Shown one piece after another: positions 4,986-43,165 of a stretch of DNA of 64,000 nucleotides. A program made the translations under genes and the position numbers. Location of the stretch: the NCBI RefSeq assembly GCF_016907315.1, contig NZ_JAFBBS010000001.1:372001-436000 (forward strand), in the 5' to 3' direction. The stretch comes from Microbacterium esteraromaticum (GTDB lineage: Bacteria; Actinomycetota; Actinomycetes; Actinomycetales; Microbacteriaceae). The notes beneath the pieces were generated by a model, which worked only from the letters and a program-made list of their open reading frames with translations, made no database searches and was not told the DNA's origin. Each line of letters begins with the position of its first letter. The stretch's first letter is position 1.

Positions 4986-4991
4986 GCGGTC

Positions 4992-5210
4992 CTAGTGGCC
5001 GTGGCCGTGGCCGTCCTTGCCGTGCTTCAGCGCGTACGCCTCGGCCTTGGCCGCGTGACGGTTGGCGACGTTGCGGAAAGACAGCGTCACCAGGCCCATC
5101 ACGGCGAAGATGATCGCGGCGATGACACCGAAGATGAAGGTTTCGGCAGCCACGTTGCCGTGGTGCTCCGTCTCGGCTGCGGCCATCGCAATCTGTGCGA
5201 CGAGGTTCAT
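4992..5210 (-). CDS. Small membrane protein with histidine-rich tail
   Basis: A 72-residue protein of unknown function. One strongly hydrophobic segment (about residues 24-45) is followed by a basic stretch and the tail HGKDGHGHGH. A metal-binding role for the tail is possible but only a guess. The ATG is preceded by AGTCAGG, and a TAGACT -10-like box at 5250-5255 would give a leader of roughly 35-40 bases. It appears to be the first gene of the operon with nadD, the tail-anchored protein, rsfS and the GNAT gene. Confidence 0.65.
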   Translation of the reverse strand: MNLVAQIAMAAAETEHHGNVAAETFIFGVIAAIIFAVMGLVTLSFRNVANRHAAKAEAYALKHGKDGHGHGH

Positions 5211-5259
5211 CCTGACTCCGTTCGTGACCTGGCGAGCAAACGCCTGTCCAGTCTAGTCC

Positions 5260-6537: not shown

Positions 6538-6543
6538 CCGGTC

Positions 6544-6549
6544 AGTGTA
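6544..6549 (-). promoter_or_regulatory. -10 box of leaderless proA
   Basis: TACACT on the minus strand with exactly six bases to the proA ATG, which would place the transcription start on the A of ATG. No good -35 box is seen. Inferred. Confidence 0.45.
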
Positions 6550-6590
6550 TCGACGGCCGAGCAGCCCCCGGGCCGCCGTGACGTCCGCCG

Positions 6591-8956
<2,366 letters not shown>

Positions 8957-9214
8957 TTACTGAGCAGCTGCGACGATGTTGACGACCTTGCGGCCGCCCT
9001 TCTTGCCGAACTCGACAGCGCCCGCCTCGAGAGCGAACAGCGTGTCGTCGCCGCCACGACCGACGCCTGCGCCGGGGTGGAAGTGGGTGCCGCGCTGACG
9101 GACGAGGATCTCGCCGGCGTTGACGGTCTGACCGCCGAAGCGCTTCACGCCGAGTCGCTGTGCGTTGGAGTCACGACCGTTGCGGGTCGAGCTCGCGCCC
9201 TTCTTATGTGCCAT
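8957..9214 (-). CDS. rpmA: 50S ribosomal protein L27
   Basis: L27 of 85 residues, located at the peptidyl-transferase centre. It starts [20 protein letters not shown], which is the mature-type N-terminus without the cleavable extension found in Firmicutes, and contains [15 protein letters not shown]. It lies 19 bases after rplU in one operon. Confidence 0.98.
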
Positions 9215-9233
9215 GTCTGAGCCTCTTCCGTGC

Positions 9234-9542
9234 TTACTTGATGCCGGTGATCTTGACGCGCGTGAGCTCCTGACGGTGGCCCTGGCGCTTCTTGTAGCCG
9301 GTCTTGTTCTTGTACTTCTGGATGACGATCTTCGGTCCGCGGAGGTTGCCGAGAACCTCAGCCGTGACCTTGACCTTCGCCAGCTTGTCGGCGTCGGTGG
9401 TCACAGAGGCACCGTCGACGAGAAGCACGGCGGGAAGCTCGATGTTCTCGCCCTGGGCAGCCTGAACACGGTCGAGCTGAACGATCGTGCCGACCTCGAC
9501 CTTCTCCTGCCGGCCACCGGCGCGCACTACTGCGTAAACCAC
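9234..9542 (-). CDS. rplU: 50S ribosomal protein L21
   Basis: L21 of 102 residues; binds 23S rRNA with L20. [18 protein letters not shown] begins the conserved part and [14 protein letters not shown] is near the end. I place the start at the GTG at 9542, because this is the family N-terminus; an upstream in-frame extension to 9689 has no family match. A 6-bp palindrome (GGAGCG-GAT-CGCTCC, 9562-9576) lies 20 bases before the start and could be part of a leader hairpin. The 214 bases up to the divergent gene at 9757 hold no other gene. Confidence 0.96.
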
Positions 9543-9744
9543 TTCATACCTGTTTCGTTGGGGAGCGGATCGCTCCGGGAATCTCACGGGAAGACTGTTG
9601 CTTGCGTACATCGCCCGGGGCGACGGGTGCAGACGCAAGACTTCTCCTGCGACCGGAAAAGCCGTCAGGGGTCTCGCACCAAAGGACAACTTTACCGGAT
9701 CATCGCCGATGCCGCAAAGCGAGGCCGGAGGTGTGTCCCGGTCC

Positions 9745-9750
9745 TAAGAT
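9745..9750 (+). promoter_or_regulatory. -10 box of leaderless DUF4031 gene
   Basis: TAAGAT is followed by six bases (CGCGAC) and then the ATG, the geometry expected when transcription starts at the start codon. No Shine-Dalgarno sequence is present. Inferred. Confidence 0.55.
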
Positions 9751-9756
9751 CGCGAC

Positions 9757-10023
9757 ATGACCGTTCTCGTCGACGACCCCATCTGGCCAGCGCACGGCCG
9801 GCTCTGGGCGCATCTCGTCAGCGACTCGGATCTGGCGGAGCTGCATGCGTTCGCCGCAGAGCAGGGCATCCCCGCTCGCGCCTTCGACCGCGACCACTAC
9901 GACGTTCCCGAGGACTCGCTGCCGAGACTCCTCGCCGCCGGTGCGGTGCACGTGGGCGGCAAGGAGCTCACCAGGCGACTGATCCGCTCAGGACTCCGGG
10001 TTCGAGCCCGCGACCGGCGCTGA
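9757..10023 (+). CDS. DUF4031 domain protein
   Basis: An 88-residue protein of the actinobacterial DUF4031 family, function unknown. It begins MTVLVDDPIWPAHGRLWAHL, the recognisable family start, and contains AFDRDHYDVPEDSLPRLLAAGA. No membrane segment or signal. It is convergent with rne: the last 36 bases overlap the 3' end of that gene on the other strand. The start is set by a -10 box six bases upstream. Confidence 0.8.
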   Translation: MTVLVDDPIWPAHGRLWAHLVSDSDLAELHAFAAEQGIPARAFDRDHYDVPEDSLPRLLAAGAVHVGGKELTRRLIRSGLRVRARDRR

Positions 10024-12417
10024 TCCCTCGCCCTGTGCCTGCGAGGCGTTGGGCGTGAGCATGGCGGTCGTGACGCGACGGCGGTTGCGTCCCTGTCCAG
10101 GGGCCTTCGGCTCAGGAAGCGCGTCGAGCACGGAGTCGAGCAGCTGCTCGGTCTCGGTCTTCGGCGCCTTGCGGTCGCCGCCGCGCTTCTTGCGCTTCTT
10201 CGGGCGCTCGCTCTGCGCAGGCGCCTCGACGACGGTCTGCGGCTCGGCTGCAGCCGGCTGCTCGCCGGGGGTCTCACCGTTCGCGACGATGGTCGAGGCG
10301 GCGATCGCGGCGAGAGCCGACTTCGCACCCTCGGTGATGCTGTGCGTGCCGCCGTTCGCCTGCGGCTGCTGTGCCTGAGCGGCGGCGGGCTGCTGCGACT
10401 GCGATCCGCCGCGCGAGCGACGGTTCTGACCGCCGCCGTTGCTCGAGCCGCCGTTGCCACTGCGATGCTTGACCACAGGATCGTGGTGCACGATCACGCC
10501 TCGGCCGGCGCACACGTCGCATGCCTCGCTGAAGGTCTCGAGCAGACCGAGGCCGAGCTTCTTGCGGGTCATCTGCACGAGGCCGAGCGAGGTGACCTCG
10601 GCGACCTGATGCTTCGTGCGGTCGCGGCTCAGGCACTCCACCAGGCGGCGCAGCACGAGATCGCGGTTGGACTCGAGCACCATGTCGATGAAGTCGACGA
10701 CGATGATGCCGCCGATGTCGCGCAGACGCAGCTGGCGGACGATCTCCTCGGCGGCCTCGAGGTTGTTCTTGGTGACGGTCTCTTCGAGGTTTCCGCCAGA
10801 GCCGACGAACTTGCCGGTGTTGACGTCGACGACCGTCATGGCCTCGGTGCGGTCGATCACGAGCGAGCCGCCCGAGGGCAGCCAGACCTTGCGGTCGAGC
10901 GCCTTCTCGATCTGCTCGGTGATGCGGTACGCGTCGAACGGGTCGACGTCGTCGGTGTAGGTCTCGACGCGCTCGAGCAGATCGGGGGCGACGCTCTCGA
11001 GGTACGCGCGGATGGTGCGCTGCGCGTCGTCGCCCTGGATCGTCATGCGGGTGAAGTCTTCGTTGAAGACATCGCGCACGATCTTGACCAGCAGGTCGGG
11101 CTCGGCGTGCAGCAGCGCCGGAGCCTGCTGCGTCTGCACCTGCTTCTGGATGTGCTCCCACTGCGAGGTGAGCCGCTGCACGTCGCGCGTCAGCTGCTCC
11201 TCGGTGGCGCCCTCGGCCGCAGTGCGGACGATCACGCCCGACGACTCGGGGAGCACCTCCTTGAGGATGCGCTTCAGGCGGGCGCGCTCGTTGTCGGGGA
11301 GCTTGCGCGAGATGCCGTTCATCGATCCGCCCGGCACGTACACGAGGTACCGGCCGGGAAGCGAGATCTGGCTGGTGAGGCGGGCTCCCTTGTGTCCGAC
11401 AGGGTCCTTGGTGACCTGCACGAGAACGCGGTCGCCGGCCTTCAGAGCGAGCTCGATGCGGCGCGGCTGGTTGCCGGTCTCGACACCATCCCAGTCGACC
11501 TCGCCCGAGTACAGCACGGCGTTGCGGCCGCGGCCGATGTCGACGAACGCGGCCTCCATGCTGGGCAGCACGTTCTGCACGCGACCCAGGTACACGTTGC
11601 CGATCAGCGACGCGTCCTGATTGCGGGCGACGTAATGCTCGACGAGCACGTCGTCTTCGAGCACGCCGATCTGGGTGCGGCCGTTCTTGGCGCGCACGAC
11701 CATCATGCGGTCGACCGACTCGCGGCGGGCGAGGAACTCGGCCTCGGTCACAACGGGACGACGGCGACCGGCATCGCGACCGTCGCGACGGCGCTGCTTC
11801 TTGGCCTCGAGGCGCGTCGAGCCCTTGATGGCCTTCGGCTCGGTGATGTACTCCACCTGGCGCTGACGCTGGCGCGGCTCTTCGCGCTGGTCGTCACCCT
11901 CCCCGCGGCGACGGCCACGGCCACGGCGGAAGGCGCTGCCGCGGTCGTCACCCTCGTCGTCGTCACGGCTGCTGCGCGCGGGCAGCGGCACCACCTCGGG
12001 TGCGTAGAAGTGCAGCTGGGTCGACACCTTCGAGACGAAGACCTCGGGCAGCAGCCCCAGGCTCACGGCCGTCACCGGCTTCGGAGCCTCGGGCTCCGCA
12101 GCCGTCTCGGGCTCCGCGACCGTCTCCGGCTGCGGCTGAGGCTCGGGCTCCGCGCCCGTCTCAGGCTCTGCGGCCGTCTCCGGCTCCGACTGAGCCTCGG
12201 ACTCCGCGGATGCCTGTGGTGCGGCTTCCGCGTCTGGATCCCCGTCGCGCTCGGCGGGCGCATCCGCAGCGGACTGGTCGTCCGCGGCGGGCTGCTCCAC
12301 AGCATCCGGCTCCGCGACGGGCTCAGCCGTCTCGGCGGTCCGGGCGTCCTCGACTACCGGCTGCGCCGGCGTCTCGTCGAGGGTGGGGGTGTTGTTGTCA
12401 TCGTTCTCATCGGCCAT
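9988..12417 (-). CDS. rne: Ribonuclease E/G family endoribonuclease
   Basis: RNA-processing and decay endonuclease of 809 residues. Residues 1-130 are a low-complexity Pro/Glu/Ala region with repeated EPET-type units; an Arg-rich stretch follows. The conserved catalytic core starts with an S1-type region (GNVYLGRVQNVLPSMEAAF) and contains MTVVDVNTGKFVG and GGIIVVDFIDM with the metal-binding aspartates, and the zinc-link CDVCAGRG. A Gln/Ala-rich and KKRKKR-containing tail follows. This layout with disordered arms on both sides is typical of actinobacterial RNase E. It is the gene upstream of rplU, as often seen; its stop overlaps the convergent DUF4031 gene. Confidence 0.93.
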   Translation of the reverse strand: MADENDDNNTPTLDETPAQPVVEDARTAETAEPVAEPDAVEQPAADDQSAADAPAERDGDPDAEAAPQASAESEAQSEPETAAEPETGAEPEPQPQPETVAEPETAAEPEAPKPVTAVSLGLLPEVFVSKVSTQLHFYAPEVVPLPARSSRDDDEGDDRGSAFRRGRGRRRGEGDDQREEPRQRQRQVEYITEPKAIKGSTRLEAKKQRRRDGRDAGRRRPVVTEAEFLARRESVDRMMVVRAKNGRTQIGVLEDDVLVEHYVARNQDASLIGNVYLGRVQNVLPSMEAAFVDIGRGRNAVLYSGEVDWDGVETGNQPRRIELALKAGDRVLVQVTKDPVGHKGARLTSQISLPGRYLVYVPGGSMNGISRKLPDNERARLKRILKEVLPESSGVIVRTAAEGATEEQLTRDVQRLTSQWEHIQKQVQTQQAPALLHAEPDLLVKIVRDVFNEDFTRMTIQGDDAQRTIRAYLESVAPDLLERVETYTDDVDPFDAYRITEQIEKALDRKVWLPSGGSLVIDRTEAMTVVDVNTGKFVGSGGNLEETVTKNNLEAAEEIVRQLRLRDIGGIIVVDFIDMVLESNRDLVLRRLVECLSRDRTKHQVAEVTSLGLVQMTRKKLGLGLLETFSEACDVCAGRGVIVHHDPVVKHRSGNGGSSNGGGQNRRSRGGSQSQQPAAAQAQQPQANGGTHSITEGAKSALAAIAASTIVANGETPGEQPAAAEPQTVVEAPAQSERPKKRKKRGGDRKAPKTETEQLLDSVLDALPEPKAPGQGRNRRRVTTAMLTPNASQAQGEGSAPVAGSNPES

Positions 12418-29885: not shown

Positions 29886-31064
29886 TCAGTTCTCGGCGTC
29901 GCGGGCGGCGACGAACGCCGCCACGCAGCGTTCGACCTGCTCGCTCGTGTGCGCCGCTGAGAGCTGCACACGGATGCGCGCCTTGCCGCGCGGTACGACA
30001 GGGAAGCTGAACGCAGTGACGTACACGCCCTGGCGCTGCATCTCGTCGGCGATACGCGCGGTGAGCGCCGCGTCGCCGAACATCACCGGCACGATCGGGT
30101 GCTCGCCGGGGAGCAGGTCGAAGCCCTCCTCGGTCATGCGGCGGCGGAACAGCTCGGCATTCCCGGTCAGTCGTGCCCGCAGGTCTGCCGAGCCCTCGAC
30201 CAGGTCGAGCGCAGTGAGGGTGCCCGCGACGATCGAGGGCGCGAGCGTGTTCGAGAAGAGGTACGGTCGCGAACGCTGACGCAGCAGGGCGACGATGTCG
30301 CGGTGTGCGGCGACGTAGCCGCCCGATGCTCCACCCAGCGCCTTGCCGAAGGTGCCGGTGTAGATGTCGACGCGGTCAGAGACGCCGCAGAACTCGGGAG
30401 TGCCGCGTCCGTTCTCACCGACGAACCCGACCGCATGCGAGTCATCGACGAAGACGAGTGCGTCGTAGCGCTCCGCCAGGTCGCAGATCTCACGCAGCGG
30501 GGCGATGTAGCCGTCCATCGAGAAGACGCCGTCGGTCACGACGACGCGGAATCGGGCATCCGACGCGGCCTTGAGCTGCTCTTCCAGATCAGCCATGTCG
30601 CGGTTGCGGTAGCGCAGACGGCGCGCCTTCGACAGTCGGATGCCGTCGATGATCGACGCGTGGTTCAGCTCGTCCGAGATGATCGCGTCGTCCGCCGTGA
30701 ACAGCGTCTCGAACACACCGCCGTTCGCGTCGAAGCACGAGGAGTACAGGATCGCGTCGTCGGTGCCGAGGAAGGCGGCGAGACGCCGCTCGAGCTCGAG
30801 GTGCTGCTCCTGCGTGCCGCAGATGAAGCGGACGCTCGCAAGGCCGTAGCCCCACTCGTCGAGTGCGCCCTTCGCGGCCGCGAGGATGCGCTCGTCGTCG
30901 GCGAGACCCAGATAGTTGTTGGCGCAGAAGTTGAGCACCTCGACGCCTCCGGTCACGATCTCGGCCTTCTGCGGGCCCGAGATCCCTCGTTCCCGCTTGG
31001 TGAGCCCCGCCTCCTCGATGCCGGCGAGCTCGGACTGCAGGTGATCCTTGAATGTCGTGTACAT
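29886..31064 (-). CDS. kbl: Glycine C-acetyltransferase (2-amino-3-ketobutyrate CoA ligase)
   Basis: PLP enzyme of 392 residues that splits 2-amino-3-oxobutyrate with CoA into glycine and acetyl-CoA, the second step of threonine degradation. The PLP lysine is Lys241 in [11 protein letters not shown], with [10 protein letters not shown] before it. An AAGGAGC site precedes the ATG. It follows tdh by 21 bases, and together the pair turns threonine into glycine and acetyl-CoA. Confidence 0.96.
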
Positions 31065-31085: not shown

Positions 31086-32129
31086 TTACAGCTCGGTCCA
31101 GTCGAGGATGATCTTGCCCGTGCCCGCCGACTCGGCGGCGGCGAAACCGCGCTCCCAGTCGCGTGCGGGGATCACGTCGGCGATCACGCGGGCGATAGAC
31201 TCACGCAGCGTCGCGCTGGTCTGCAGCATCGCGCCCATCGCGTTCCAGGTCTCGAACATCTCGCGGCCGTAGATGCCCTTGATCGTGAGCATGTGGGTCA
31301 CGAGCTTGCCCCAGTCGATGTCGAATCCTGAGCTCGGGAGCCCCAGCATGGCGATCTGGCCGCCGTGGTTCATGTTGTCGATCATCGCGGGCAGTGCCGA
31401 GGGTGCACCGCTCATCTCGAAGCCGATGTCGAAGCCCTCGCGCATGCCGAGCGCGCGCTGCGCGTCGCGGATGTCCTCCTGCGAGACATCGACGACCGCG
31501 TCGGCGCCCATCTGCTTCGCCATGTCGAGGCGCGGCGCGCTGACGTCTGTGGCCACGATGAACCGCGCGCCCGCGTGCCGGGCGACGGCGATCGACATGA
31601 GGCCGATGGGGCCGCATCCGGTGATCAGCACGTCCTCGCCGATCACGCGGTACATGAGTGCGGTGTGCACGGCGTTGCCCAGCGGGTCGAAGATGGCGCC
31701 GAGCTCAGGCGTGACGTCGTCGTGGTGCACCCAGACGTTGGTCGCGGGAAGCGAGAGGTACTCGGCGAAGGCACCGTCTCGCTGCAGCCCGAGGCCGATG
31801 GTGCGGATGCACATCTGGCGGCGCCCGGCGCGGCAGTTGCGGCAGGTGCCACAGACGATGTGCCCCTCACCCGAGACCCGATCGCCGACCGATATGTCGT
31901 GCACGAGCGGCCCGACCTCGACGACCTCGCCGTAGAACTCATGGCCGGGGATCAACGGCGCCTCGATCGCTGAAGCGGCCCAGTCGTCCCAGCGGTGGAT
32001 GTGCAGGTCGGTGCCGCAGATGCCGGTGCGGAGCACGCGGATGACGACCTCGCCGGTTGCAGCGACGGGGTCGGGGCGATCGACGAGCTCGAAGCCCGCG
32101 CGCGGACCGCTCTTGAACAGTGCCTTCAT
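31086..32129 (-). CDS. tdh: L-threonine 3-dehydrogenase
   Basis: Zinc, NAD-dependent medium-chain dehydrogenase of 347 residues oxidising threonine to 2-amino-3-oxobutyrate. Catalytic zinc ligands Cys38, His63 and Glu64 (PGHEFYGEVV) and structural zinc cysteines 93, 96, 99 and 107 are all present. First gene of the tdh-kbl operon, divergent from a LysR regulator 87 bases away. Confidence 0.96.
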   Translation of the reverse strand: MKALFKSGPRAGFELVDRPDPVAATGEVVIRVLRTGICGTDLHIHRWDDWAASAIEAPLIPGHEFYGEVVEVGPLVHDISVGDRVSGEGHIVCGTCRNCRAGRRQMCIRTIGLGLQRDGAFAEYLSLPATNVWVHHDDVTPELGAIFDPLGNAVHTALMYRVIGEDVLITGCGPIGLMSIAVARHAGARFIVATDVSAPRLDMAKQMGADAVVDVSQEDIRDAQRALGMREGFDIGFEMSGAPSALPAMIDNMNHGGQIAMLGLPSSGFDIDWGKLVTHMLTIKGIYGREMFETWNAMGAMLQTSATLRESIARVIADVIPARDWERGFAAAESAGTGKIILDWTEL

Positions 32130-32216: not shown

Positions 32217-33125
32217 ATGGAACTCCATCAGCTCCAGATCCTGCGCGAACTCGGCGCCCTCGGCAGCGTCACGGCCGTCGCCGATGCGCTGCGGGTCACG
32301 CCGTCAGCAGTGTCGCAGCAGCTCGCCGCGCTGCAACGCGGCGTGCGCACTCCCCTCACCCGGAGACAGGGGCGCACACTCGTGCTGACGGCCGCCGGGC
32401 AGGTGCTCGCCGAAGCCGGCGGTGAGGCGCTGGATGCCATGGCCGCCGCGCGCGGTGCCCTCGACGCCTTCGAGCACGACGCCGCGGGCGTCGTCAGTGT
32501 GAGCGGCTTCCACAGCGCAGGCCAGGCTCTGTTCGGCGCGCTGCTGCGCGAGCTCTCCGGCAGCGACGACGCTCCCACCGTGCAGCTCACCGACGAGGAT
32601 GTCGCACAGAGCGAGTTCCCCGCCCTCACCGCTCGATACGACATCGTGCTCGCGCACCGCATGGAGCACTCCGAACCGTGGCCCTCGCAGGGCGTGCGCA
32701 GCCTCACCCTCGTACGCGAACCGCTCGACGTCGCGGTCGCCGTATCGCACCCTCTCGCCACACGCTCCTCGGTCTCGCCTGCGGACATCGCCGGCGAGCG
32801 CTGGGTCACGAGCCGCATCGGATATTCGCCCGACGACGTTCTCGGCGCCGTCGCCGCAGTCGCGAACGTGGCCCCGCGCGTGCAGCACCGCATCAACGAC
32901 TACGGGGCGGTGGCGGCCGCCGTCGCGGCGGGCGACGTGATCGGCCTGCTCCCCCGCTTCACCTCACGCAGCGTCGACGACAGCGAGATCGTGCGCATCC
33001 CGCTGCTCGGCGTCAGCACCCACCGTCTGATCGACGTGCTCGCACGCCCCGAGACACTGCGCCGTCGAAGCGTGCGGCTCGTCGTCGAGGGTCTGCAGCA
33101 GGTCATGGCGCGCCTGAGCGGCTGA
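32217..33125 (+). CDS. LysR-family regulator, probably of tdh-kbl
   Basis: A 302-residue regulator with an N-terminal helix-turn-helix (LGSVTAVADALRVTPSAVSQ) at about residues 11-31 and a periplasmic-binding-like effector domain. Wording of the HTH is that of the actinobacterial LysR group. Divergent placement next to tdh is the usual layout for a LysR gene and its target, so control of threonine degradation is likely, though not shown. Confidence 0.88.
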   Translation: MELHQLQILRELGALGSVTAVADALRVTPSAVSQQLAALQRGVRTPLTRRQGRTLVLTAAGQVLAEAGGEALDAMAAARGALDAFEHDAAGVVSVSGFHSAGQALFGALLRELSGSDDAPTVQLTDEDVAQSEFPALTARYDIVLAHRMEHSEPWPSQGVRSLTLVREPLDVAVAVSHPLATRSSVSPADIAGERWVTSRIGYSPDDVLGAVAAVANVAPRVQHRINDYGAVAAAVAAGDVIGLLPRFTSRSVDDSEIVRIPLLGVSTHRLIDVLARPETLRRRSVRLVVEGLQQVMARLSG

Positions 33126-33200: not shown

Positions 33201-34790
33201 TCAGGAGGAGCAGGTGACCTCGGTGCGGTAGATCTGCATGTCACCGCCGGCCGCGTGCGGCGTCATGCACGGCGTGTGGGCGATGTACATGACCTGCTGA
33301 TACAGCGGCTGGATCACCTGGTCCGCGAGGATGCGGTCCTCCGCCTTCTGCCAGAGTGCGTCCGCCTCATCCTGGCTCGGCGCGGCGAGCGCGGCGTCGA
33401 CCGCCGCCTGCCCCTCCGCGTCCGCGTACTGAAGCCGGTAGTTGGCGTCGACGTACACCGACGCGACCCACTCGGATGCCGCGGGGAACGACGAGCCCCA
33501 GAGCTGGATGACAGGACCGTCGAGCTTGTAGGAGTTGATCGTCTCGGACAGGGCCGCAGCGGGAACCGGCTTCGGCTCGACCTCGAGCCCGATCTCCTTC
33601 GCCGAGTTCGAGACGGCGAGCGCCGTTGCCGCATCGGTGGTGTTCTCCGACGAGTAGTTCAGCGGAATGGTGCCCGTGAAGCCAGACTTCTCGATCAGCG
33701 CCTTGGCGGCATCGGGATCGAACGTGCAGGACTCGCCGCATGCGTCTTCGCGGTATGCCGACACCGAGTTCGGCATCAGCGAGCCGGCAGGCACCGTCGC
33801 CTCCTTGAACAGGTCCTTCGAGATGCTCTCCCGGTCGACGATCATCGAGAACGCCTGGCGGACCTCGAGCGGGAACGTCGCGTCGAGGTAGGTCGGCCAG
33901 GTGAAGTAGGTCTCGAGCGTGTTGCGCTCGATGGCCGTCAGCCCCTTCTCACCGAGCGAGTTGCGGCCCTGCGCGATGAGCCCGGGCGGCAGGCTGCGCA
34001 GCACATCCGCATTGCCGGCGAGCACATCCTGATAGGCGGTGTTGGTGTCGGTGTAGACGCGGAAGGTGATCTTGTCGGCGGCGCCCTCGGGCACCCAGCC
34101 CTTGTACTTCGGATCCTTCTCGAGCACGGCCTCGACCTGAGGGTCGAGGGACTTCAGCGTGTAGACGCCGTTTCCGATCGGCTTCTTGTCGTACGCGAGC
34201 GGGTCGGCGAAGGCACTTTCGGGCATCGGGCAGAACGCGAGCTGCGAGAGGATGTAGGGAACGTCGTTGTTCGGCGTCTTCATCTCGATCGTGAAGGTGG
34301 TCTCGTCGACGAGGGTGATCCCCGAGAACGTCTCGGCCGCCGCCTCACCCTCGGCGGGGTTCATCTCGTCGTAGCCCTTGATGGGGCCGTAGGCGTAGTT
34401 CGACGGCATCGCGTTCACGCCGGCGCCGACGAAGTTGAACGTGTCGACATAGGTCTCAGCAGTGATCGGCGTGCCGTCGGAGAACGTGTGCCCGTCGGCG
34501 ACCTCGATCGTCCAGGTGACCTGGTCTTCGCTCTCGACCGATTCGGCTCCGCGCATGAAGACCGTGCCGTCCTCTTCGATGCCGGTGAGGGGTTCACAGA
34601 GGGCCATCGCGATCTGACTGCCCGGGTTCTGGGCTCCGGTGATGCGGCCGATCTCGCCGTTGTTCACCGCCACGAGCGATGTCGTGCCGTCGCCGGTCTC
34701 GGTGGGCTGACCGAGACAGCCTGTCAGCATGGTGGCGCATGCGGCAGCGGCGACGATGCCGGTCCCGATGCGACTGGTGGTGCGCTTCAT
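33201..34790 (-). CDS. ABC transporter substrate-binding lipoprotein, family 5
   Basis: Solute receptor of the second importer, 529 residues, SBP_bac_5 family. Signal peptide with lipobox LTGC (Cys about residue 25). Conserved parts include DGHTFSDGTPITAETYVDTF and VRQAFSMIVDRESI. Two cysteine pairs (ACGESC; a pair near the C-terminus) may form disulfides. The ATG at 34790 is four bases inside the ATPase stop (ATGA) and has AGGA upstream. It is the last gene of its operon, an unusual place for a receptor normally made in excess. Confidence 0.92.
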   Translation of the reverse strand: MKRTTSRIGTGIVAAAACATMLTGCLGQPTETGDGTTSLVAVNNGEIGRITGAQNPGSQIAMALCEPLTGIEEDGTVFMRGAESVESEDQVTWTIEVADGHTFSDGTPITAETYVDTFNFVGAGVNAMPSNYAYGPIKGYDEMNPAEGEAAAETFSGITLVDETTFTIEMKTPNNDVPYILSQLAFCPMPESAFADPLAYDKKPIGNGVYTLKSLDPQVEAVLEKDPKYKGWVPEGAADKITFRVYTDTNTAYQDVLAGNADVLRSLPPGLIAQGRNSLGEKGLTAIERNTLETYFTWPTYLDATFPLEVRQAFSMIVDRESISKDLFKEATVPAGSLMPNSVSAYREDACGESCTFDPDAAKALIEKSGFTGTIPLNYSSENTTDAATALAVSNSAKEIGLEVEPKPVPAAALSETINSYKLDGPVIQLWGSSFPAASEWVASVYVDANYRLQYADAEGQAAVDAALAAPSQDEADALWQKAEDRILADQVIQPLYQQVMYIAHTPCMTPHAAGGDMQIYRTEVTCSS

Positions 34791-35860
34791 GGGTGGGTCC
34801 TTTCGGAGGGGGTGGTGCTCTGCGTGTCGGACGGGAGGATCGGAATGGTCGAGACCATTCCGACGGAAGAGTGCGTGATCTGCGCCGAGAGATGGCACGA
34901 CGCCCGGTGCGAGGGCGCTCCACCCGGCACGGGTCGGAGTTCGGGCACCTCGACGGCGCAGCGTTCGATGGCCGCGTAGCAGCGGGTGTGGAACGGGCAT
35001 CCCGGCGGCGGGTCGATCGGCGAGGGCGGGTCGCCTTCGAGTACGACTCGCTCCAACCTTTCGTTCGGGGCCAGCTTGCGGGGAATCGCAGACAGGAGTG
35101 CACGCGTGTAGGGATGCGCGGTCGCTCCGTACACGTCATCGCCGTCGCCCTGTTCGACGACCTTGCCGAGGTACATGGTCACGATGCGATCCGACATGTG
35201 CTGGACGACGTCGAGGTCGTGTGCGATGAAGATGATCGACAGACCCAGCTCGCGCTTGAGACGGTTCAGCAGGTTGAGAACCTGCGCACGCACGGAGATG
35301 TCGAGGGCGGACACCGGCTCGTCGCACACGAGCAGCTTCGGCTCGACGGCCAGAGCGCGGGCGATGCCGATCCGCTGCAGCTGGCCGCCCGAGAACTCGT
35401 GAGGATAGCGGTGCGCGTGGTCGGGGTTGAGACCCACCTGTGCCAGCAGCTCGGCCACGCGGCCGTCGATCTGGTTCGCCGGGAGCAGCGCGTGGGTCAC
35501 GATCCCCTCGGCGATCGACTGCCCGATCGAGCGGCGGGGATCGAGCGAGGCGTGCGGGTCCTGGAACACCATCTGCACCTCGCGGTGCAGGAGCGTCTTG
35601 CGGTCGGCGCGCGACATCGTTCCCACGTCCGCACCGTTCCAGCGAACGGTCCCCTCACTCGGCTCCTCGAGACCGCAGATGATCCGCGCCAGCGTCGACT
35701 TCCCGCATCCGGATTCTCCGACGAGTCCGACGGTCTCGCCCTCGTCGACGGCGAAGTCCACTCCGTCGACGGCTCGCACCTGCCCGTGAACCGCTCGCGA
35801 GAACAGTGCGTGCTTCTGCTTGTAGAACCGGCGCACCGATTCAAGCTCCAACAGGGGCAT
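34787..35860 (-). CDS. Peptide-type ABC transporter ATPase (DppF-like)
   Basis: ATP-binding subunit of 357 residues. Walker A GESGCGKST, Q-loop MVFQDPHASLDP, signature FSGGQLQR, Walker B LLVCDEPVSALD. C-terminal oligopeptide/dipeptide extension with CPFHTRCYAAIERC, the cysteine motif that holds an Fe-S cluster in related Dpp/Opp ATPases. The ATG lies 20 bases inside the preceding ATPase gene, with AAGGAGGAGG nine bases before it. Confidence 0.94.
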   Translation of the reverse strand: MPLLELESVRRFYKQKHALFSRAVHGQVRAVDGVDFAVDEGETVGLVGESGCGKSTLARIICGLEEPSEGTVRWNGADVGTMSRADRKTLLHREVQMVFQDPHASLDPRRSIGQSIAEGIVTHALLPANQIDGRVAELLAQVGLNPDHAHRYPHEFSGGQLQRIGIARALAVEPKLLVCDEPVSALDISVRAQVLNLLNRLKRELGLSIIFIAHDLDVVQHMSDRIVTMYLGKVVEQGDGDDVYGATAHPYTRALLSAIPRKLAPNERLERVVLEGDPPSPIDPPPGCPFHTRCYAAIERCAVEVPELRPVPGGAPSHRASCHLSAQITHSSVGMVSTIPILPSDTQSTTPSERTHP

Positions 35861-36839
35861 CCGCGAGCACCTCCTCCTTGTGATGGCATGCGGCCGCGCG
35901 CTGGGCGGCGAACGGTTCGAGCAGCGGCAGCACTGACCGGCACTCGTCGGTCGCGAACTCGCACCGCGGGTTGAAGCTGCAGCCCGGCGGCCTCAGCGCG
36001 ATGTCGGGCGGAAGGCCGGGGATGGTGGGAAGATCCGCACCGCGATGGGCTGCGCTCGGGATCGAGCCGAGGAGTCCTCTCGTGTAGGGATGCGCGGGAC
36101 GATCGAACATCGTGCCGATCGGACCCGACTCAGCGACGCGGCCGGCGTACATCACGAGAGCCCGGTCTGCCAGCTGACCGGCCACACCCAGATCGTGCGT
36201 GATCATCAGCAGCGCCATGCGCCGCTCCTGCGTGATCTCACTCAGGAGCTCCAGGATCTGCGCCTGAACCGTCGCGTCCAGCGCCGTCGTCGGCTCATCG
36301 GCGATGAGGACATCCGGGTCCAGGGCCAGAGCCATCGCGATCATGATGCGCTGACGCATGCCCCCCGAGAACTGGAACGGGTAGTCGTTCGCGCGGTTCG
36401 CCGCATCGGGGATGCGCACCGCACGCATCATGTCGATGGCCGCTGCGATCGCCTGCCTCTTCGGCATTCCGCGGTGCACGCGATACAGCTCCGCGATCTG
36501 CGTGGACACGGTCTGCACAGGGTTCAGGGCACTCAGGGCATCCTGGAAGATCATCGCGATGCGGGCGCCCTGCACTTTGCGCAGCCTGGCCGGCGGCAGT
36601 GTGAGCAGATCTTCCCCGTCGAACATGATGCGGCCGCCGGTGACGCGGGACGCGGGCTTCGGGAGGATGCCCATGATCGCCTTGGCGGTGATGCTCTTGC
36701 CGGAGCCTGATTCGCCGAGAACGGCGAGAGTCTCACCGCGGTCGAGAGTGAAGCTGACGTCCTGCAGCGCGGGGATGGGCGGGCGTCCTCCCGATCGGAA
36801 TTCGAGGGAGAGGTTCTGCACGTCGAGCAGCGCGGTCAT
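35841..36839 (-). CDS. Peptide-type ABC transporter ATPase (DppD-like)
   Basis: ATP-binding subunit of 332 residues, D-type. Walker A GESGSGKS, IFQDALSALNPV, signature FSGGMRQR, Walker B LIADEPTTALD, and C-terminal cysteine motif CSFNPRCEFATDEC. ATG at 36839 overlaps the permease stop by ATGA. Works as a pair with the downstream ATPase. Confidence 0.94.
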   Translation of the reverse strand: MTALLDVQNLSLEFRSGGRPPIPALQDVSFTLDRGETLAVLGESGSGKSITAKAIMGILPKPASRVTGGRIMFDGEDLLTLPPARLRKVQGARIAMIFQDALSALNPVQTVSTQIAELYRVHRGMPKRQAIAAAIDMMRAVRIPDAANRANDYPFQFSGGMRQRIMIAMALALDPDVLIADEPTTALDATVQAQILELLSEITQERRMALLMITHDLGVAGQLADRALVMYAGRVAESGPIGTMFDRPAHPYTRGLLGSIPSAAHRGADLPTIPGLPPDIALRPPGCSFNPRCEFATDECRSVLPLLEPFAAQRAAACHHKEEVLADAPVGA

Positions 36840-37735
36840 CGGCGGGCCTTCGGGTCGAGGGCGTCGCGCAGGCTCTCGCCGAGCACGACGAAGGCGAGCG
36901 TTGTGAGGCCCAGCATGAGCGCGGGGAAGAACATCAGCAGTGGTGCGATCTGCCAGTTGCCGTCTTGACTGGCGAGCGCGATCTGGATGCCCCACGAGAA
37001 GGCGGGAAGACGAAGGCCGACCCCGAGGATCGAGAACCCAGCCTCAGCCGCCATACCGGCGCCGACGGACAGCGTGGTCATCACGATCAGCGGTGTCACC
37101 GCATTCGGGATGACATGGGTACGCAGAATGCGCCATGGGCCCACGCCGAGTCCACGCGCTGCCTGAATGTACTCGAGGTTGCGCACCTGCATGACGGAGC
37201 TGCGCATGTAGCGCATGGTCGCCGCCCAGCTGAAGAGCACGAGCACCATCACGATGGTCCACACAGTGCGGGAGCGGAACTGGTAGAGGATCACGAGGCT
37301 GGCGATGCCGACGGGGATGCCGAGGATCACGTTCGATGTCCAGGAGATGACCGAGTCGGTGATCCCGCCGAAGTAGCCGGCCAGGGATCCGGCGATGAGT
37401 GCGATGACGAAGGAGATCGCCGCTGTGTACACGCCCACCTCGAGCGAGGTGCGCGCTCCGTGGACGATGTTCGACCAGTAGTCGCACCCCTGGATGTCGA
37501 AGCCCATCGGATGCCCGGGCTGCGGACCGACGCGCGACATCGACAGGTCGCAGTCCCGGGGGTCGATCGACGTGAAGAGGCCGGGGAAGAGCGACATCAG
37601 CGTCACGACGACGATGATCAGCGCGGCGATGTCGAAGAAGGGGCTCTTCCACAGGCTGCGCAGTCCGCTGCGGGGGCGCCCGCGTCGCATGCGCGTGCCG
37701 CGCATGGCGATCAGCGTGGTCGTGGATTCAGGCAT
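36836..37735 (-). CDS. Peptide-type ABC transporter permease (DppC-like)
   Basis: Permease of 299 residues, C-type. MGFDIQGCDYWSNIVHGARTS replaces the usual GTDxxGRD loop wording, and AARGLGVGPWRILRTHVIP is the ATPase-contact loop. Basic N-terminus then about six spans. It overlaps the upstream permease by eight bases. Confidence 0.92.
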   Translation of the reverse strand: MPESTTTLIAMRGTRMRRGRPRSGLRSLWKSPFFDIAALIIVVVTLMSLFPGLFTSIDPRDCDLSMSRVGPQPGHPMGFDIQGCDYWSNIVHGARTSLEVGVYTAAISFVIALIAGSLAGYFGGITDSVISWTSNVILGIPVGIASLVILYQFRSRTVWTIVMVLVLFSWAATMRYMRSSVMQVRNLEYIQAARGLGVGPWRILRTHVIPNAVTPLIVMTTLSVGAGMAAEAGFSILGVGLRLPAFSWGIQIALASQDGNWQIAPLLMFFPALMLGLTTLAFVVLGESLRDALDPKARR

Positions 37736-38657
37736 GACGGACCCTCGGATCGATGATCGGGTACAGCAGGTCGACGACGAGAGCAGCGACCAGGTAGAAC
37801 AGCAGCAGGAACACGGAGACCCCGACCACGACCGGGCCGTTCTGCGTGTCTATCGCTCTCGCCAGGGTCCCGCCGAGCCCGGGAAGGTTGAAGATCGTCT
37901 CGATGAGGACGGACCCGCCGAGCAGCGCGGCGATGCTGAGCCCGAGGTACGTCACGACCGGCACGAAGGCGTTGCGCAGGGCATGCACCCACATGATCCG
38001 CTGCGGACCGATCCCCTTCGCGGTGGCCGTCACGATGTAGTCCGAGCGGAGCACGTCGACGAGGCTGGTGCGGCTGAGCCTGGCCAGCGGGGACGCCGTC
38101 TCCAGAGCGAGCACGATCGCCGGCAGGATGAACGCGAGCGGGAACCCCGCTTGGACCCCGGAGATCGGGAGCCAGTGCAGCTTGATGCCGAAGACGTACT
38201 GCGAGAAGTAGGCGATGATGAAGCCAGGCACCGCCAGGAAGAAGATCGTGAAGAACAGGTTGAACTTGTCCGGGAAGCGGCCCTGACGAAGACCTGCCCA
38301 GACGCCGAGGCAGACCCCGATCACGATCTTGAGAACGAACGCCGACAGCGCGAGCACCACGGTGTAGGGAAGCGCGGTGGCGATCAGCGTCGATACCGAG
38401 TTGCCGTTGAAGTCATGACCGAAGTCGCCCTGCAGCACGCCCCACAGGTATTTGCCGTACTGGACGAAGAACGGATCGTCGAGGTTGTACTGGTCGCGGA
38501 TGGCCGCGATCGTGGAGTTCGAGAGCCGCTTCTCTCCCCCGGCGAGCCGCGCGACAGGGTCCCCGGGGATGAGGAAGACGAGCAGGTACACGAGGAACGT
38601 CGATCCGATGAGAGTCGGGATCATCATCAGGATGCGGCGCAGCGCGTAGCGGAGCAT
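37728..38657 (-). CDS. Peptide-type ABC transporter permease (DppB-like)
   Basis: Permease of 309 residues, B-type: LLVFLIPGDPVARLAGG after span 1, GDFGHDFNGNSV, contact loop VTATAKGIGPQRIMWVHALR. The ATG at 38657 shares one base with the stop of the ROK-oxidoreductase gene (TGATG), so transport and regulation/enzyme are translationally coupled. Confidence 0.93.
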   Translation of the reverse strand: MLRYALRRILMMIPTLIGSTFLVYLLVFLIPGDPVARLAGGEKRLSNSTIAAIRDQYNLDDPFFVQYGKYLWGVLQGDFGHDFNGNSVSTLIATALPYTVVLALSAFVLKIVIGVCLGVWAGLRQGRFPDKFNLFFTIFFLAVPGFIIAYFSQYVFGIKLHWLPISGVQAGFPLAFILPAIVLALETASPLARLSRTSLVDVLRSDYIVTATAKGIGPQRIMWVHALRNAFVPVVTYLGLSIAALLGGSVLIETIFNLPGLGGTLARAIDTQNGPVVVGVSVFLLLFYLVAALVVDLLYPIIDPRVRHA

Positions 38658-41011
38658 CAGCGGCGGGACGGCTGGTGCGCCGCGTAGTACTCGAGCAGGT
38701 CGTCGCTCAGACGAGGGATCTGGACCGGCGCGGACTGGGAGCGGATGGACAGAGCGCCACCGATTCCGGCCGCCACTGCGTCGCGTGCGGCGACGGGACT
38801 GGTGTCGGTGGGCGTTCCGCGGCGGACGAAGTCGACGAACTCCGCAACGGTCAGCGGGTCCGCTCCGCCGTGCCCGCCGTCCCCGCCGTCGTCGATCGGG
38901 TACCGAACGTGGCCCTTCTCGAGGTAGTCGCTTCGGGCGTTCCACAGCCGGATCTCGCCGCCCGCGTCGTCGTCGAAGTTCTCGATGCGCCCCTCGGTGC
39001 CGATCACCGTGTAGTTGCGCCAGTAGTCGGGCGTGAAGTGACACTGCTGGTAGCTCATGAGCACGCCCGAGTCGGTGCGCATCATGATCATCGAGATGTC
39101 CTCGACGTCGATGACGGGGTTCAGGTCCTGCTGCGCCGCCGGAGGCCAGTTCGACATCGAGAACCAGTCACCCATTCGACGGTCGGAGTTGTCGCGTCGC
39201 GACTCGACGTCGCCGTACACGGCCAGGTCGCCCACACCCACCACCGAGCGGGTCGAGGTGCCGGCGATCCAATGCATCACATCGATGTCGTGCGCACCCT
39301 TCTGCAGCAGGAGGCTCATCGCCTTGTCGCGCTCGGCGTGCCAGTCCTTGAAGTAGTAGTCCCCGCCGTGTCCGACGAAGTGACGGCACCAGATGGCCTT
39401 GACCTCGCCGATCTCACCGCGGTCGACGATCTCCTTCAGCATCCGGACGACTCGCATGTGGCGCATGTTGTGGCCGACGTAGACCTTCGTGCCTGTGCGG
39501 TGGCCGGCCTCGAGGATGCGATCTGCGTCTTCGATCGAGATCGCGAGCGGCTTCTCGATGTAGGTGGCGATGCCTGCCTCGAGCAGCTCGACCGACACGT
39601 CGGCATGCGTGAAGTCGGGCGTCGTGACGAATGCGCCGTCGATCTCGATGCCGGATGCGAGCAGTTCCGCCACCGAGCCGAAGACCGGGATGTCACCGAA
39701 CAGGCGCCGTGCACGCTCGTGGGTCTTCACATCGGGGTCGACCGCCGCGACCACGCTTCCGCCTGCCTCCCGCACGTGCAGGGCGACGCCCGCGCGGGCG
39801 CCCACGCCGATCACCGCGGCGCGGAACGGTGCGGCCTCGACGGCTGGGTCAGTGGTCATCTGTTCGTTCTCCGATTCGGTGGTGATGAGGGGCGCCGGCA
39901 CGTCCGGCAACCCGTAGATGGCGTGCGAGTGCTTCTCGAATGCGAGTCCCAGAGCGCCGAGAGCAGCGGCATCCGGGCCCAGATCGCCTCCGCGGATGAC
40001 GCGCGCGCCGGCCTCGATGCCGGTCACGGCGACGCGGATGCCATCGGCCAGCGGCCCGGCGAGGAGGTCGGCGTACTCGCTCAGTTCGCCGCCGAGGACG
40101 ATGACATCGGGGTCGACGGTGAGCAGCAGCGCAGCCATCGCCGGGGTCATCGCCGCGCTCAGAGCGTTCAGCGCCGCGAGACCGCGCTGATCGGCTGGGT
40201 CGTCGCGCAGACGACGCAGCTCGCTCTCGACGCGCGGAACGGCTTCAAGGAGGCTCCCCTCGGGCACGTCGACATCGCTGAATGCGCGCAGCAGGCCGAC
40301 CTCGCCCGCGCGTCCCCTGCGGCCCCGAAGCACGCTGCCTGAGGCGGTGACTCGCGCAGACACGTGGTGCCAGGTGAGTGCATACACCCCGGTCTCAGCG
40401 TCTGCGAGCGCGCCCTGCCGCGACTCCGCTTCGGCCGCCAGCGACAGGTCGTTGTCGACGACGGCCGGCACGCCGAAGTAGTCGCTGAACATGGTCTGCA
40501 GATGGCGCCCGCTCCACTCGCTGATCTGAGGCGCCGAGACCAGGATTCCGTCCTCGTCGATGAGACCGGCTACTGCTATGCCCATCGCCGCGACGTCGGA
40601 GAGCCCCCGCCCGACTCGCTCCAGCGCCTGCACGAGCAGAGAGCGCACGGGCACGAGGGAGGGGCGGCCTGTCGTGGGCGGGGCGATATCGGAGCCGCCT
40701 GCGATCAGCACACGTCCCGTCCGATCAGCGATGACCAGGCGGACGGTGCTCCGGGTGAGATCGAGCCCTACGGCCACCGTTGAGCCCGCAACCGGGGAGT
40801 AGGTGCGCGCCGGACGCCCTGCCGCTGCCCGGGCGTCGTGCTCGGTGGCCTGACCCGATGCGACAAGGGCGTGGAGCGCCGCGGTCACGGTCGGCCGGGA
40901 GAGCCCTGTCATCTCGGTGAGGTCCGAGATGGTGGCGCGGCCCAGGTCGCGCAGGCTTGCGAGGGAAGCTGCGACGAGCTTCGCATCGATGGTGGACATC
41001 TTCGACCCCAT
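38657..41011 (-). CDS. Fusion of ROK-family repressor and Gfo/Idh/MocA oxidoreductase
   Basis: One 784-residue frame holding two proteins. Residues 1-70 are a winged helix (ATISDLTEMTGLSRPTVTAAL); 76-360 a ROK fold (VAVGLDLTRSTVRLVIADRTG; VVDNDLSLAAEAES), lacking the usual CxCGxxGCxE zinc motif and the GH histidine (AGEVGLLRA). A linker follows, and from Met385 a NAD-dependent sugar dehydrogenase: RAAVIGVGARAG (Rossmann), EKP at 486-488, and KGAHDIDVMHW with catalytic-site His574. Either half has normal length (about 384 and 400). A good ribosome site before Met385 may allow separate synthesis of the enzyme. First gene of the transporter operon; probably senses and processes an imported sugar derivative. 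A shorter start at Met5 is possible. Confidence 0.88.
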   Translation of the reverse strand: MGSKMSTIDAKLVAASLASLRDLGRATISDLTEMTGLSRPTVTAALHALVASGQATEHDARAAAGRPARTYSPVAGSTVAVGLDLTRSTVRLVIADRTGRVLIAGGSDIAPPTTGRPSLVPVRSLLVQALERVGRGLSDVAAMGIAVAGLIDEDGILVSAPQISEWSGRHLQTMFSDYFGVPAVVDNDLSLAAEAESRQGALADAETGVYALTWHHVSARVTASGSVLRGRRGRAGEVGLLRAFSDVDVPEGSLLEAVPRVESELRRLRDDPADQRGLAALNALSAAMTPAMAALLLTVDPDVIVLGGELSEYADLLAGPLADGIRVAVTGIEAGARVIRGGDLGPDAAALGALGLAFEKHSHAIYGLPDVPAPLITTESENEQMTTDPAVEAAPFRAAVIGVGARAGVALHVREAGGSVVAAVDPDVKTHERARRLFGDIPVFGSVAELLASGIEIDGAFVTTPDFTHADVSVELLEAGIATYIEKPLAISIEDADRILEAGHRTGTKVYVGHNMRHMRVVRMLKEIVDRGEIGEVKAIWCRHFVGHGGDYYFKDWHAERDKAMSLLLQKGAHDIDVMHWIAGTSTRSVVGVGDLAVYGDVESRRDNSDRRMGDWFSMSNWPPAAQQDLNPVIDVEDISMIMMRTDSGVLMSYQQCHFTPDYWRNYTVIGTEGRIENFDDDAGGEIRLWNARSDYLEKGHVRYPIDDGGDGGHGGADPLTVAEFVDFVRRGTPTDTSPVAARDAVAAGIGGALSIRSQSAPVQIPRLSDDLLEYYAAHQPSRR
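39857..39872 (-). promoter_or_regulatory. Possible internal ribosome site for the oxidoreductase half
   Basis: GGAGAA (39867-39872, minus strand) lies seven bases before the in-frame ATG at 39857-39859 (Met385). Spacing is ideal. It would release a 400-residue oxidoreductase from the fusion gene. Inferred. Confidence 0.5.
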
Positions 41012-41031
41012 TTACGAATTCGGTTTCGTAA
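41012..41031. promoter_or_regulatory. Operator in front of the ROK fusion gene
   Basis: TTACGAA, TTCGGT, TTCGTAA: a 7-bp perfect inverted repeat directly before the ATG, so binding would block transcription and translation start. Likely autoregulation by the ROK domain. A second palindrome, ATGAAA-TGAC-TTTCAT, lies at 41037-41052. Confidence 0.65.
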
Positions 41032-41053
41032 CCGTTATGAAATGACTTTCATC

Positions 41054-41082
41054 ATTGTGAGGGTCGCGCGGGCCGGTGTCAA
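41054..41082 (-). promoter_or_regulatory. Promoter of the ROK-transporter operon
   Basis: TTGACA (41077-41082), 17 bases, CACAAT (41054-41059) on the minus strand: perfect -35, reasonable -10. The start of RNA would fall near 41047, inside the palindromes described. It overlaps the divergent promoter of the M3 peptidase. Confidence 0.6.
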
Positions 41083-41113: not shown

Positions 41114-43165
41114 ATGACCGAGGCCGTGAACCCGCTGCTCACCCGCTCGACACTCCCCTACGAACTGCCCGACTACGCGGCCATTCGCACCGAGCACTAC
41201 CTCCCCGCGTTCGAGGCGGCCTTCGCTGAGCACCTCGCTGAAGTCAGAGCCATCACCGTGGTGCGATCGATGCCGACCTTCGAGAACACGATCGAGGCTC
41301 TGGAGCGCAGCGGCGAGATGCTGGATCGCATCGCGCACGCGTTCTACACGGTCAGTTCCGCAGATGCGTCGCCTGGCATCCAGGCAGTCGACGAGCAGCT
41401 CGCCCCGATGATGGCCGCTCACGACGACGCGATACGGCTCGACGGCGCGCTCTACTGGCACGTGTCGCAGGTGCATGATCAGCTCGATCAGCTCGACCTG
41501 ACAGACGAGCAGCGCTATCTGGTTCAGCGCCATCTCCGCGAGATGACCCATGCGGGAGCCGCGCTCGACGACGCATCCAAGACACGTCTGACCGCAGTGA
41601 ATCAGCGCCTGTCAACGCTCAGCACGACGTTCGAGAAGAACCTCCTGGCCGACACGAACGCCCTGGCCGTGGTCTTCGACGACGCCGCAGAACTCGACGG
41701 TCTCTCCGAGGGCGAACTCAGCGCGACCGCACGCGCGGCAGCGGAGCGCGGTCTCGAAGGGAGGTATCTGGTCTCGCTGCCGCTGTTCAGCGGCCATCCC
41801 TACCTCGCTTCCCTCACCCGGCGCGAGAGCCGTCGTCGCATCATGCAGGCGTCACTCGCCCGCGCCTCACGCGGGAACGAGCACGACAACAGAGCCGTCC
41901 TCGCTGAGATCGTGTCTCTCCGCGCAGAGCGCGCGGAGCTGCTCGGCTACGACTCGCACGCCGCGTACGTCACCGCAGACGAGACAGCCGGCACGCCGTA
42001 CGCCGTCGAGCGCATGCTGCGAGAACTGGCCGCTCCCGCCGCCCGCAACGCGCGGCGCGAGTCGGCGGCGCTGCAGCAGATCATCGACGAAACGGAGCCC
42101 GAGCCATTTCCACTCGAGGCTCACGACTGGGCCTACTACACCGAGAAGGTTCGACAGGCCCGCTATGACATCGACACCGCAGCCCTGCGGCCGTACTTCG
42201 AGGCCGGACGAGTGCTGCGCGACGGCGTCTTCTTCGCCGCGACGAAGCTGTACGGGATCACCTTCACGGAACGCACCGACCTGGTGTCGTACCACCCCGG
42301 AGCGCGGGTCTTCGAGGTGCACGACGAGGACGGCTCAGCGGTCGGGCTGTACGTGCTCGATCTGTACACCCGCGATTCCAAGAGAGGCGGAGCGTGGATG
42401 AACCCGATCGTGAGCGAGTCGGCGCTGCGCGGCACCCTGCCGGTGGTGGCGAACAACCTCAACGTCTCGCAGCCCGCCGAGGGGATGCCCACCTTGCTCA
42501 CGCTGGATGAGGTGACCACGCTGTTCCATGAGTTCGGTCACGCGCTGCACGGACTGTTCGCCCGGGTCACGTACCCGCACTTCTCGGGCACGAACGTGTT
42601 CCGCGACTTCGTCGAGTTCCCGAGCCAGGTGAACGAGATGTGGATCCTGTGGGAAGAGGTTCTGCGGAACTACGCGCGCCACCATGAGACGGGAGAGCCG
42701 CTCGACGCGGGGATCATCGCGCGCCTGCGCGCGTCGGAGAAGTTCGATCAGGGTCACGCGACAAGCGAGTACCTCGCCGCAGCGTGGCTCGATCAGGCAT
42801 GGCACCGGGTGGGCGCGGGCGCCGAGCCGGGCGACATCGCGGCATTCGAGCGCGATGCTCTGGCCGACGTCGGACTGCTGAGCCCGGTCGTGCCGACCCG
42901 CTATTCATCCGCGTACTTCGCTCACATCTTCTCGGGCGGGTACAGTGCCGGCTACTACTCGTATATCTGGAGCGAGGTGCTCGACGCAGACACCGTGGAG
43001 TGGTTCCGGGAGAACGGCGGCCTCACCCGCGCGAACGGGGATCGCTTCCGCCGGCGTCTGCTCGGCGTGGGCGGGTCGAAGGATCCGGTCGAGGCCTACC
43101 GCGACTTCCGGGGTCGGGATGCTGAGATCGCTCCGCTGCTCGAGCGCCGCGGACTCGATCGTTGA
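41114..43165 (+). CDS. M3-family oligopeptidase (Dcp/oligopeptidase A type)
   Basis: Cytoplasmic zinc metallopeptidase of 683 residues that degrades short peptides. Zinc motif HEFGH at residues 472-476 within LFHEFGHALHGLF, third ligand Glu about 25 residues on (DFVEFPSQVNEMW). The C-terminal FSGGYSAGYYSYIWSEVLDAD is the substrate-tyrosine segment of peptidyl-dipeptidase Dcp. No signal peptide. A peptidase beside a peptide-type importer may be chance, since they are divergent. Confidence 0.94.
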   Translation: MTEAVNPLLTRSTLPYELPDYAAIRTEHYLPAFEAAFAEHLAEVRAITVVRSMPTFENTIEALERSGEMLDRIAHAFYTVSSADASPGIQAVDEQLAPMMAAHDDAIRLDGALYWHVSQVHDQLDQLDLTDEQRYLVQRHLREMTHAGAALDDASKTRLTAVNQRLSTLSTTFEKNLLADTNALAVVFDDAAELDGLSEGELSATARAAAERGLEGRYLVSLPLFSGHPYLASLTRRESRRRIMQASLARASRGNEHDNRAVLAEIVSLRAERAELLGYDSHAAYVTADETAGTPYAVERMLRELAAPAARNARRESAALQQIIDETEPEPFPLEAHDWAYYTEKVRQARYDIDTAALRPYFEAGRVLRDGVFFAATKLYGITFTERTDLVSYHPGARVFEVHDEDGSAVGLYVLDLYTRDSKRGGAWMNPIVSESALRGTLPVVANNLNVSQPAEGMPTLLTLDEVTTLFHEFGHALHGLFARVTYPHFSGTNVFRDFVEFPSQVNEMWILWEEVLRNYARHHETGEPLDAGIIARLRASEKFDQGHATSEYLAAAWLDQAWHRVGAGAEPGDIAAFERDALADVGLLSPVVPTRYSSAYFAHIFSGGYSAGYYSYIWSEVLDADTVEWFRENGGLTRANGDRFRRRLLGVGGSKDPVEAYRDFRGRDAEIAPLLERRGLDR

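Follow-up and report, generated by a model that had tools for sequence, protein, structure and literature searches.

Domains and distribution of the fused gene

Within a 64,000-nucleotide window of the Microbacterium esteraromaticum genome (contig NZ_JAFBBS010000001.1, positions 372,001 to 436,000), we studied a 784-residue open frame at 38657-41011 which, judged from its sequence, is a genuine and conserved fusion of a ROK repressor to a Gfo/Idh/MocA oxidoreductase. The frame reads along the minus strand, from 41011 down to 38657; plus-strand translation of the same interval contains stops, and opposite-strand open reading frames across the region are taken as shadow frames of a GC-rich gene. 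A first-pass annotation had proposed a single frame with both functions, and Pfam scores bear this out for the minus strand: ROK (PF00480) matches residues 82-239 with 59.3 bits (cut-off 22.9), and both parts of a Gfo/Idh/MocA enzyme exceed their cut-offs, namely the Rossmann domain (PF01408, residues 396-514, 65.5 bits, cut-off 24) and the C-terminal alpha/beta domain (PF22725, residues 522-677, 65.3 bits, cut-off 27; PF02894, residues 526-764, 55.2 bits, cut-off 22.9). The two halves it had drawn at residues 1-384 and 385-784 were found again; the start behind that numbering, an upstream in-frame minus-strand ATG at 41009-41011, was given up for ATG 40997-40999, since orthologues align from MSTIDAK, and the chain is likely to have 780 residues. 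The ROK half then spans 380 residues (39860-40999, minus strand; Pfam PF00480, alignment with Mlc and 2hoe, orthologue-supported start) and the enzyme half 400 (38657-39859, minus strand, stop at 38657-38659; the three Pfam families and the model).

An AlphaFold2 model of the whole chain gives two confident domains (mean predicted local distance difference test, pLDDT, 85.9; predicted template modelling score, pTM, 0.54) joined by a disordered linker (pLDDT <50 at residues 376-388 of the 780-residue chain), which is poorly conserved among orthologues apart from the internal start described below; modelled alone, the enzyme half reaches a pLDDT of 92.8. The ROK half opens with a winged helix-turn-helix (three helices then strands at model residues 6-69) and can be aligned to Mlc (1z6r, 3bp8) starting at residue 16 and to 2hoe starting at residue 26; Pfam helix-turn-helix models match it below their cut-offs (22.0 of 27 and 20.2 of 27). 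Zinc-type ROK members are marked by a Cys zinc-binding motif, and translated residues 1-384 contain no Cys at all; DxGGT and ExGH, the signatures of kinase-type members, are likewise absent from the ROK half.

That the halves looked intact rather than like a merged remnant, as the first-pass annotation had it, is upheld by a search of 5.8 billion proteins (292 homologues): both domains are present in 119 of the 120 listed, the other one (P0021, 497 residues) having the enzyme domains only. Lengths were restricted to 0.55-1.75 times the query, which hides most stand-alone enzymes. Scanning GTDB genomes shows how common these are: the best 80 of 570 loci, a ranking that favours fused rows, comprise 25 fused genes, 7 enzymes with a separate ROK gene directly upstream and 48 without an adjacent ROK gene, three of which have too little flank to classify (L110, whose contig starts at the gene; L068 and L093, with <300 bases of 5' flank). 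L103 was counted as stand-alone, with a ROK gene and then another enzyme copy just upstream, and L037 as fused despite an in-frame stop; in the latter (8965-11277, Propionibacteriaceae P6A17) the stop follows about 88 ROK residues, and the enzyme half and internal start are open. An even draw of 394 class-wide genomes gave 33 with a match at E <= 1e-90; among the 30 loci fetched, with about 1.5 kb of flank per side, the enzyme frame is present in all 30, fused in 4 (G000, G034, G536, G637) and unfused in 26. The fused homologue of G536 (C3:1418026-1420437, also L125) has a long linker and one in-frame TGA inside the match. Within Microbacterium, 14 of 366 genomes match at E <= 1e-180, six over the full length, one partially (271-783) and seven in the enzyme half only (80-83% identity). 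By these sequence counts the fusion is real, yet a minority form of the enzyme.

A joining of two genes through assembly or sequencing error, for which we found nothing in favour, has a probability next to nil: fused versions occur in independent genomes of many genera, and this recurrence also rules out a fusion peculiar to the strain. When the junction is compared with relatives, as had been proposed, the fusion proves conserved. What was named as the refuting case, close relatives with two separate genes and a stop lost by sequencing error, stands in its first part, since related lineages with separate genes do exist; its second part fails because the fused form recurs across many independent genomes and three enzyme-tree clades.

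A proposed second start at the junction

These clades are Microbacterium/Flexivirga, Propionibacteriaceae/Actinomycetaceae and Promicromonosporaceae: with 93 enzyme rows in the tree, 3 changes suffice to account for the 27 that are fused (6.4 on average after shuffling), and the ROK tree broadly agrees with it. Unfused pairs adjoin the first two clades. Four of the seven adjacent pairs have a ROK stop that runs into the start codon of the enzyme: the shared sequence is ATGA in Bowdeniella (L053, L059) and in Phycicoccus (L062), which sits elsewhere in the tree, and GTGA in Intrasporangium (L061). The remaining three pairs, the two Streptomyces loci and L099, are organised differently.

The most interesting property of the regulator-enzyme fusion is a conserved internal start. 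An in-frame ATG at 39857-39859 (minus strand; Met 385 of 784), our proposed second translation start, was located by alignment with stand-alone Microbacterium orthologues, whose start ATG is the codon that is internal here (6/7 junctions inspected), and a Shine-Dalgarno-like GGAG (39869-39872, minus strand) precedes it by 9 nt. The aligned start codon is kept in 20 of 26 fused genes, as ATG in 19 and as TTG in L087. Within the Propionibacteriaceae/Actinomycetaceae clade, 16 loci have a purine-rich AAAGGA-type sequence 12 nt ahead of the start. Its Gly codon is GGA, which this clade rarely uses, in 13/16 loci where 2.1 would be expected (P 5e-10); counting a single locus per group gives 9/11 (P 1.4e-7), and the preceding codon is an A-ending or AGA form in 9/11 (P 3.6e-8). 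Among 43 conserved Gly columns the GGA count is highest at the junction (alignment column 381, where L037 and L046 are gapped), with 11/14 as opposed to 6/13 in the runner-up. The test was run on 14 rows with a strict motif (without L037 and L043) and on 16 with a looser one; clade loci L055 and L056, which have no junction start, stand outside it. Fused junctions of this clade also keep [KRE]-G-x-[HR]-x-x-[ML], whose fixed-place His is unexplained by a Shine-Dalgarno sequence.

The internal ATG of the window's gene has a Shine-Dalgarno duplex energy of -6.6, better than at any of the 16 other in-frame ATGs that were examined there, and the junction's Shine-Dalgarno sequence is the best in 7 of 20 loci (one-per-group permutation P 5e-5). 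Of the positions sampled in the window's gene, none has less folded mRNA than that around this ATG, and averaged over 20 loci, 4.7% of the positions in a gene fold as weakly as the junction. Same-gene windows matched for GC content are as weakly folded in 0/165 cases for the window's gene, 0/48 for L044, 0/234 for L042, 1/42 for L047, 6/81 for L031 and 5/75 for L035. Five of the six fused genes without an aligned ATG fold ordinarily (mean 0.29-0.93), the exception being L033 (0.04); among 14 start-bearing loci tested likewise, L051 (0.24) is not clearly unfolded.

Sequence comparison establishes the two domains, a fusion that is conserved, its kinship with overlapping gene pairs, and an internal start signal retained more often than chance would allow, as expected of a nested in-frame gene. 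Codon bias, Shine-Dalgarno sequence and unfolded mRNA we read as selection on a working second start. Given that 20 of the 26 fused genes retain a start codon for the enzyme and that two-gene relatives exist, we infer that two proteins are likely to be made, a fused and a free enzyme. The absence of an internal start in six of the 26 fused loci, L033 with only a misplaced ATG and a weak Shine-Dalgarno sequence and L036, L040, L060, L055 and L056 with none, weighs against this. infB and cheA are examples of nested in-frame proteoforms; as with them, the product of the fusion's second in-frame start would be shortened at the N-terminus, and unlike theirs, this short form would be a complete enzyme that has its own gene in relatives.

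Might the full-length fusion be the only product made? The protein would then be a regulator of the trigger-enzyme type, in which DNA binding by the ROK half depends directly on whether substrate or NAD(H) occupies the oxidoreductase. PutA is a bifunctional regulator-enzyme of this kind, which likewise joins a DNA-binding domain and a catabolic enzyme in one chain beside an operon; the present fusion differs from it in its ROK half and in a conserved internal start predicted to give free enzyme. A frame open across the linker in many genera, the flexibility of that linker and five fused genes which retain both halves without an internal ATG speak for such a regulator. However, neither the internal start signal, nor the synonymous-codon bias, nor the unfolded mRNA would be expected if only the long form mattered; stand-alone enzymes outnumber fusions both among the best loci (48 to 25) and class-wide (26 to 4), often beside regulators of other families (LacI near 17 of the 48 stand-alone loci, DeoR near 7), and a pTM of 0.54 defines no firm arrangement of the halves. 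We regard this explanation as quite unlikely.

Alternatively, the fusion may be a by-product of a lost frame difference between translationally coupled genes, with independent halves, a tether devoid of any role and an internal start that makes the working enzyme. This would fit the ATGA and GTGA overlaps of the same pair in unfused relatives, the seven Microbacterium orthologues that match the enzyme half only, two of the loci with stand-alone Microbacterium enzymes (L034, L039) in which no ROK gene lies within 1 kb upstream, the otherwise unconserved linker and L037 with its interrupted ROK part. Yet every one of the 18 fused loci in the Propionibacteriaceae/Actinomycetaceae clade keeps its frame open at the junction despite long ROK branches, and this, together with fusion in three clades, suggests (rather than shows) that the tether is under selection. 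To us, a by-product seems unlikely.

Operon, candidate operator and enzyme

Upstream of the fused gene lies a perfect palindrome, TTACGAA-N6-TTCGTAA (41012-41031), which we propose as a ROK operator, followed by an imperfect one with 3 mismatches (41035-41054) and a promoter-like TTGACA-17 nt-CACAAT, read by eye on the minus strand (41054-41082). The palindromes overlap or come after the -10 element and cover the promoter/start region; at up to 3 mismatches two were found against 0.13 expected, at least two occurring in 1/100 shuffles, and L033 and L035 have comparable ones at the same place ahead of their fused genes. The likeness to Mlc/NagC-type ROK repressors comprises the winged helix-turn-helix, the ROK fold and an operator-like palindrome at the fusion's own promoter, the differences being the missing Cys zinc site, the missing DxGGT and ExGH signatures and a whole second enzyme domain. 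Most likely the ROK half acts as a local repressor of its own operon, and the fusion probably represses its transport operon through the palindrome over the promoter/start region. It counts against this that L031 and L032, nearer relatives, lack a palindrome with perfect 6-bp arms and that 8 of 33 upstream regions have no palindrome at all.

The operon in question runs on in the same (minus) strand, as called by a simple in-house gene caller rather than annotation. An Opp/Dpp-type permease gene (37728-38657), whose ATG shares one base with the fusion's TGA, is followed by a second permease gene (36836-37735; Pfam BPD_transp_1), two ABC ATPase genes assigned by frame and cluster membership (35841-36839 and 34787-35860) and a gene for a solute-binding protein (33201-34790; Pfam SBP_bac_5, start by gene calling). 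Among 25 fused loci, 22 have a same-strand transporter gene after the fusion. On the far side of a divergent LysR gene (32217-33125) lie, again on the minus strand, an L-threonine 3-dehydrogenase-like gene (tdh; 31086-32129; NF003808 501 bits, cut-off 380; TIGR00692 404 bits, below its cut-off of 458) and a glycine C-acetyltransferase gene (kbl; 29886-31064; NF005394 634 bits, cut-off 460; TIGR01822 602 bits, cut-off 493); by our own estimate tdh/kbl would occur near the enzyme by chance at ~0.5% per locus (about 18 genes among a few thousand). Four Micrococcaceae loci have a separate, distant ROK; in L069, L079, L097 and L105 a window-like Opp transporter-enzyme-tdh-kbl set is preceded, at a distance of a few kb, by a ROK regulator that is unfused and distantly related. 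Divergent from the intergenic region of the fusion is a peptidase M3 gene (41114-43165), as it is in L031 and L032; with the Opp-type transporter it would fit a peptide-linked substrate. The stand-alone enzyme genes of L034 and L039 lie (at about 4900-10250) behind an alpha-L-fucosidase gene and one for a 721-residue protein without a Pfam match.

As for the enzyme half, its nearest known counterparts may be NAD+-dependent glycosidases with a Gfo/Idh/MocA fold, that is, glycoside hydrolase family 188 (GH188) sulfoquinovosidases and GH109 alpha-N-acetylgalactosaminidases. GH188 enzymes are its top-ranked structural matches, but at an identity of only about 18%, and the match to GH109 enzyme 2ixa is confined to the Rossmann part. 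E102, K103, P104, H190 and D191 of the half are invariant in 50 sequences, and H190 and H330 are both invariant His residues; His193/His321 form the catalytic pair of ArSqgA according to its published description (PMC10755693). No close solved relative of the subfamily was found, and a profile of the C-terminal half against solved structures gave a single weak match to an unrelated protein (E 1). Because threonine genes lie nearby and N-acetylgalactosamine (GalNAc)-type genes lie beside stand-alone relatives, the neighbourhood suggests an NAD-dependent enzyme acting on conjugates of a sugar with Ser/Thr, and as substrate class we tentatively put forward Ser/Thr-linked amino sugars. A Bacteroides GH109 enzyme acts on Tn antigen, as stated in a published report (PMC11992087), and the open-access literature gave no match for GalNAc-Thr with a Gfo-type enzyme.

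Repressor, enzyme and their two proposed products

Taken together, we consider it probable that the locus holds a nested gene, a conserved fusion of a local ROK repressor to an enzyme of the operon it controls, with two products. Full-length translation would yield the ROK-oxidoreductase and the second in-frame start at the junction a free oxidoreductase; the ROK half would repress the fusion-transporter operon at the palindromes over the promoter/start region until released by a sugar ligand, and the enzyme half, with bound NAD, would act on imported sugar conjugates. In a stronger version the gene would be built to yield two proteins. One would be a repressor-tethered enzyme that gates transcription of its own uptake operon according to its occupancy by substrate or cofactor, the other would be free catalytic enzyme, and the internal ribosome-binding site would set their ratio; ROK-enzyme pairs with a 4-nt coupling overlap would have given rise to this arrangement on two or three occasions. 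To our minds this version is possible, albeit doubtful. The first-pass annotation, which had proposed that redox state or substrate turnover could control transcription directly, is partly supported overall: redox control is possible, and a plain ligand-sensing repressor co-translated with the enzyme fits the data as well as control by redox state or turnover.

In the open-access literature (subscription papers were outside the scope) we found no description of a ROK-Gfo/Idh/MocA fusion. Many database names read just 'ROK family protein', which hides both the enzyme and the second start, and some JGI names give both halves. Orthologous pairs display stages of fusion, from overlapping separate genes through fusion with a retained internal start to fusion without one, and this series makes tethering for signalling, as opposed to mere co-translation, a testable matter. 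Judged by its neighbours, the enzyme subfamily may provide soil and host-associated Actinobacteria with a pathway that starts from sugar-Ser/Thr conjugates.
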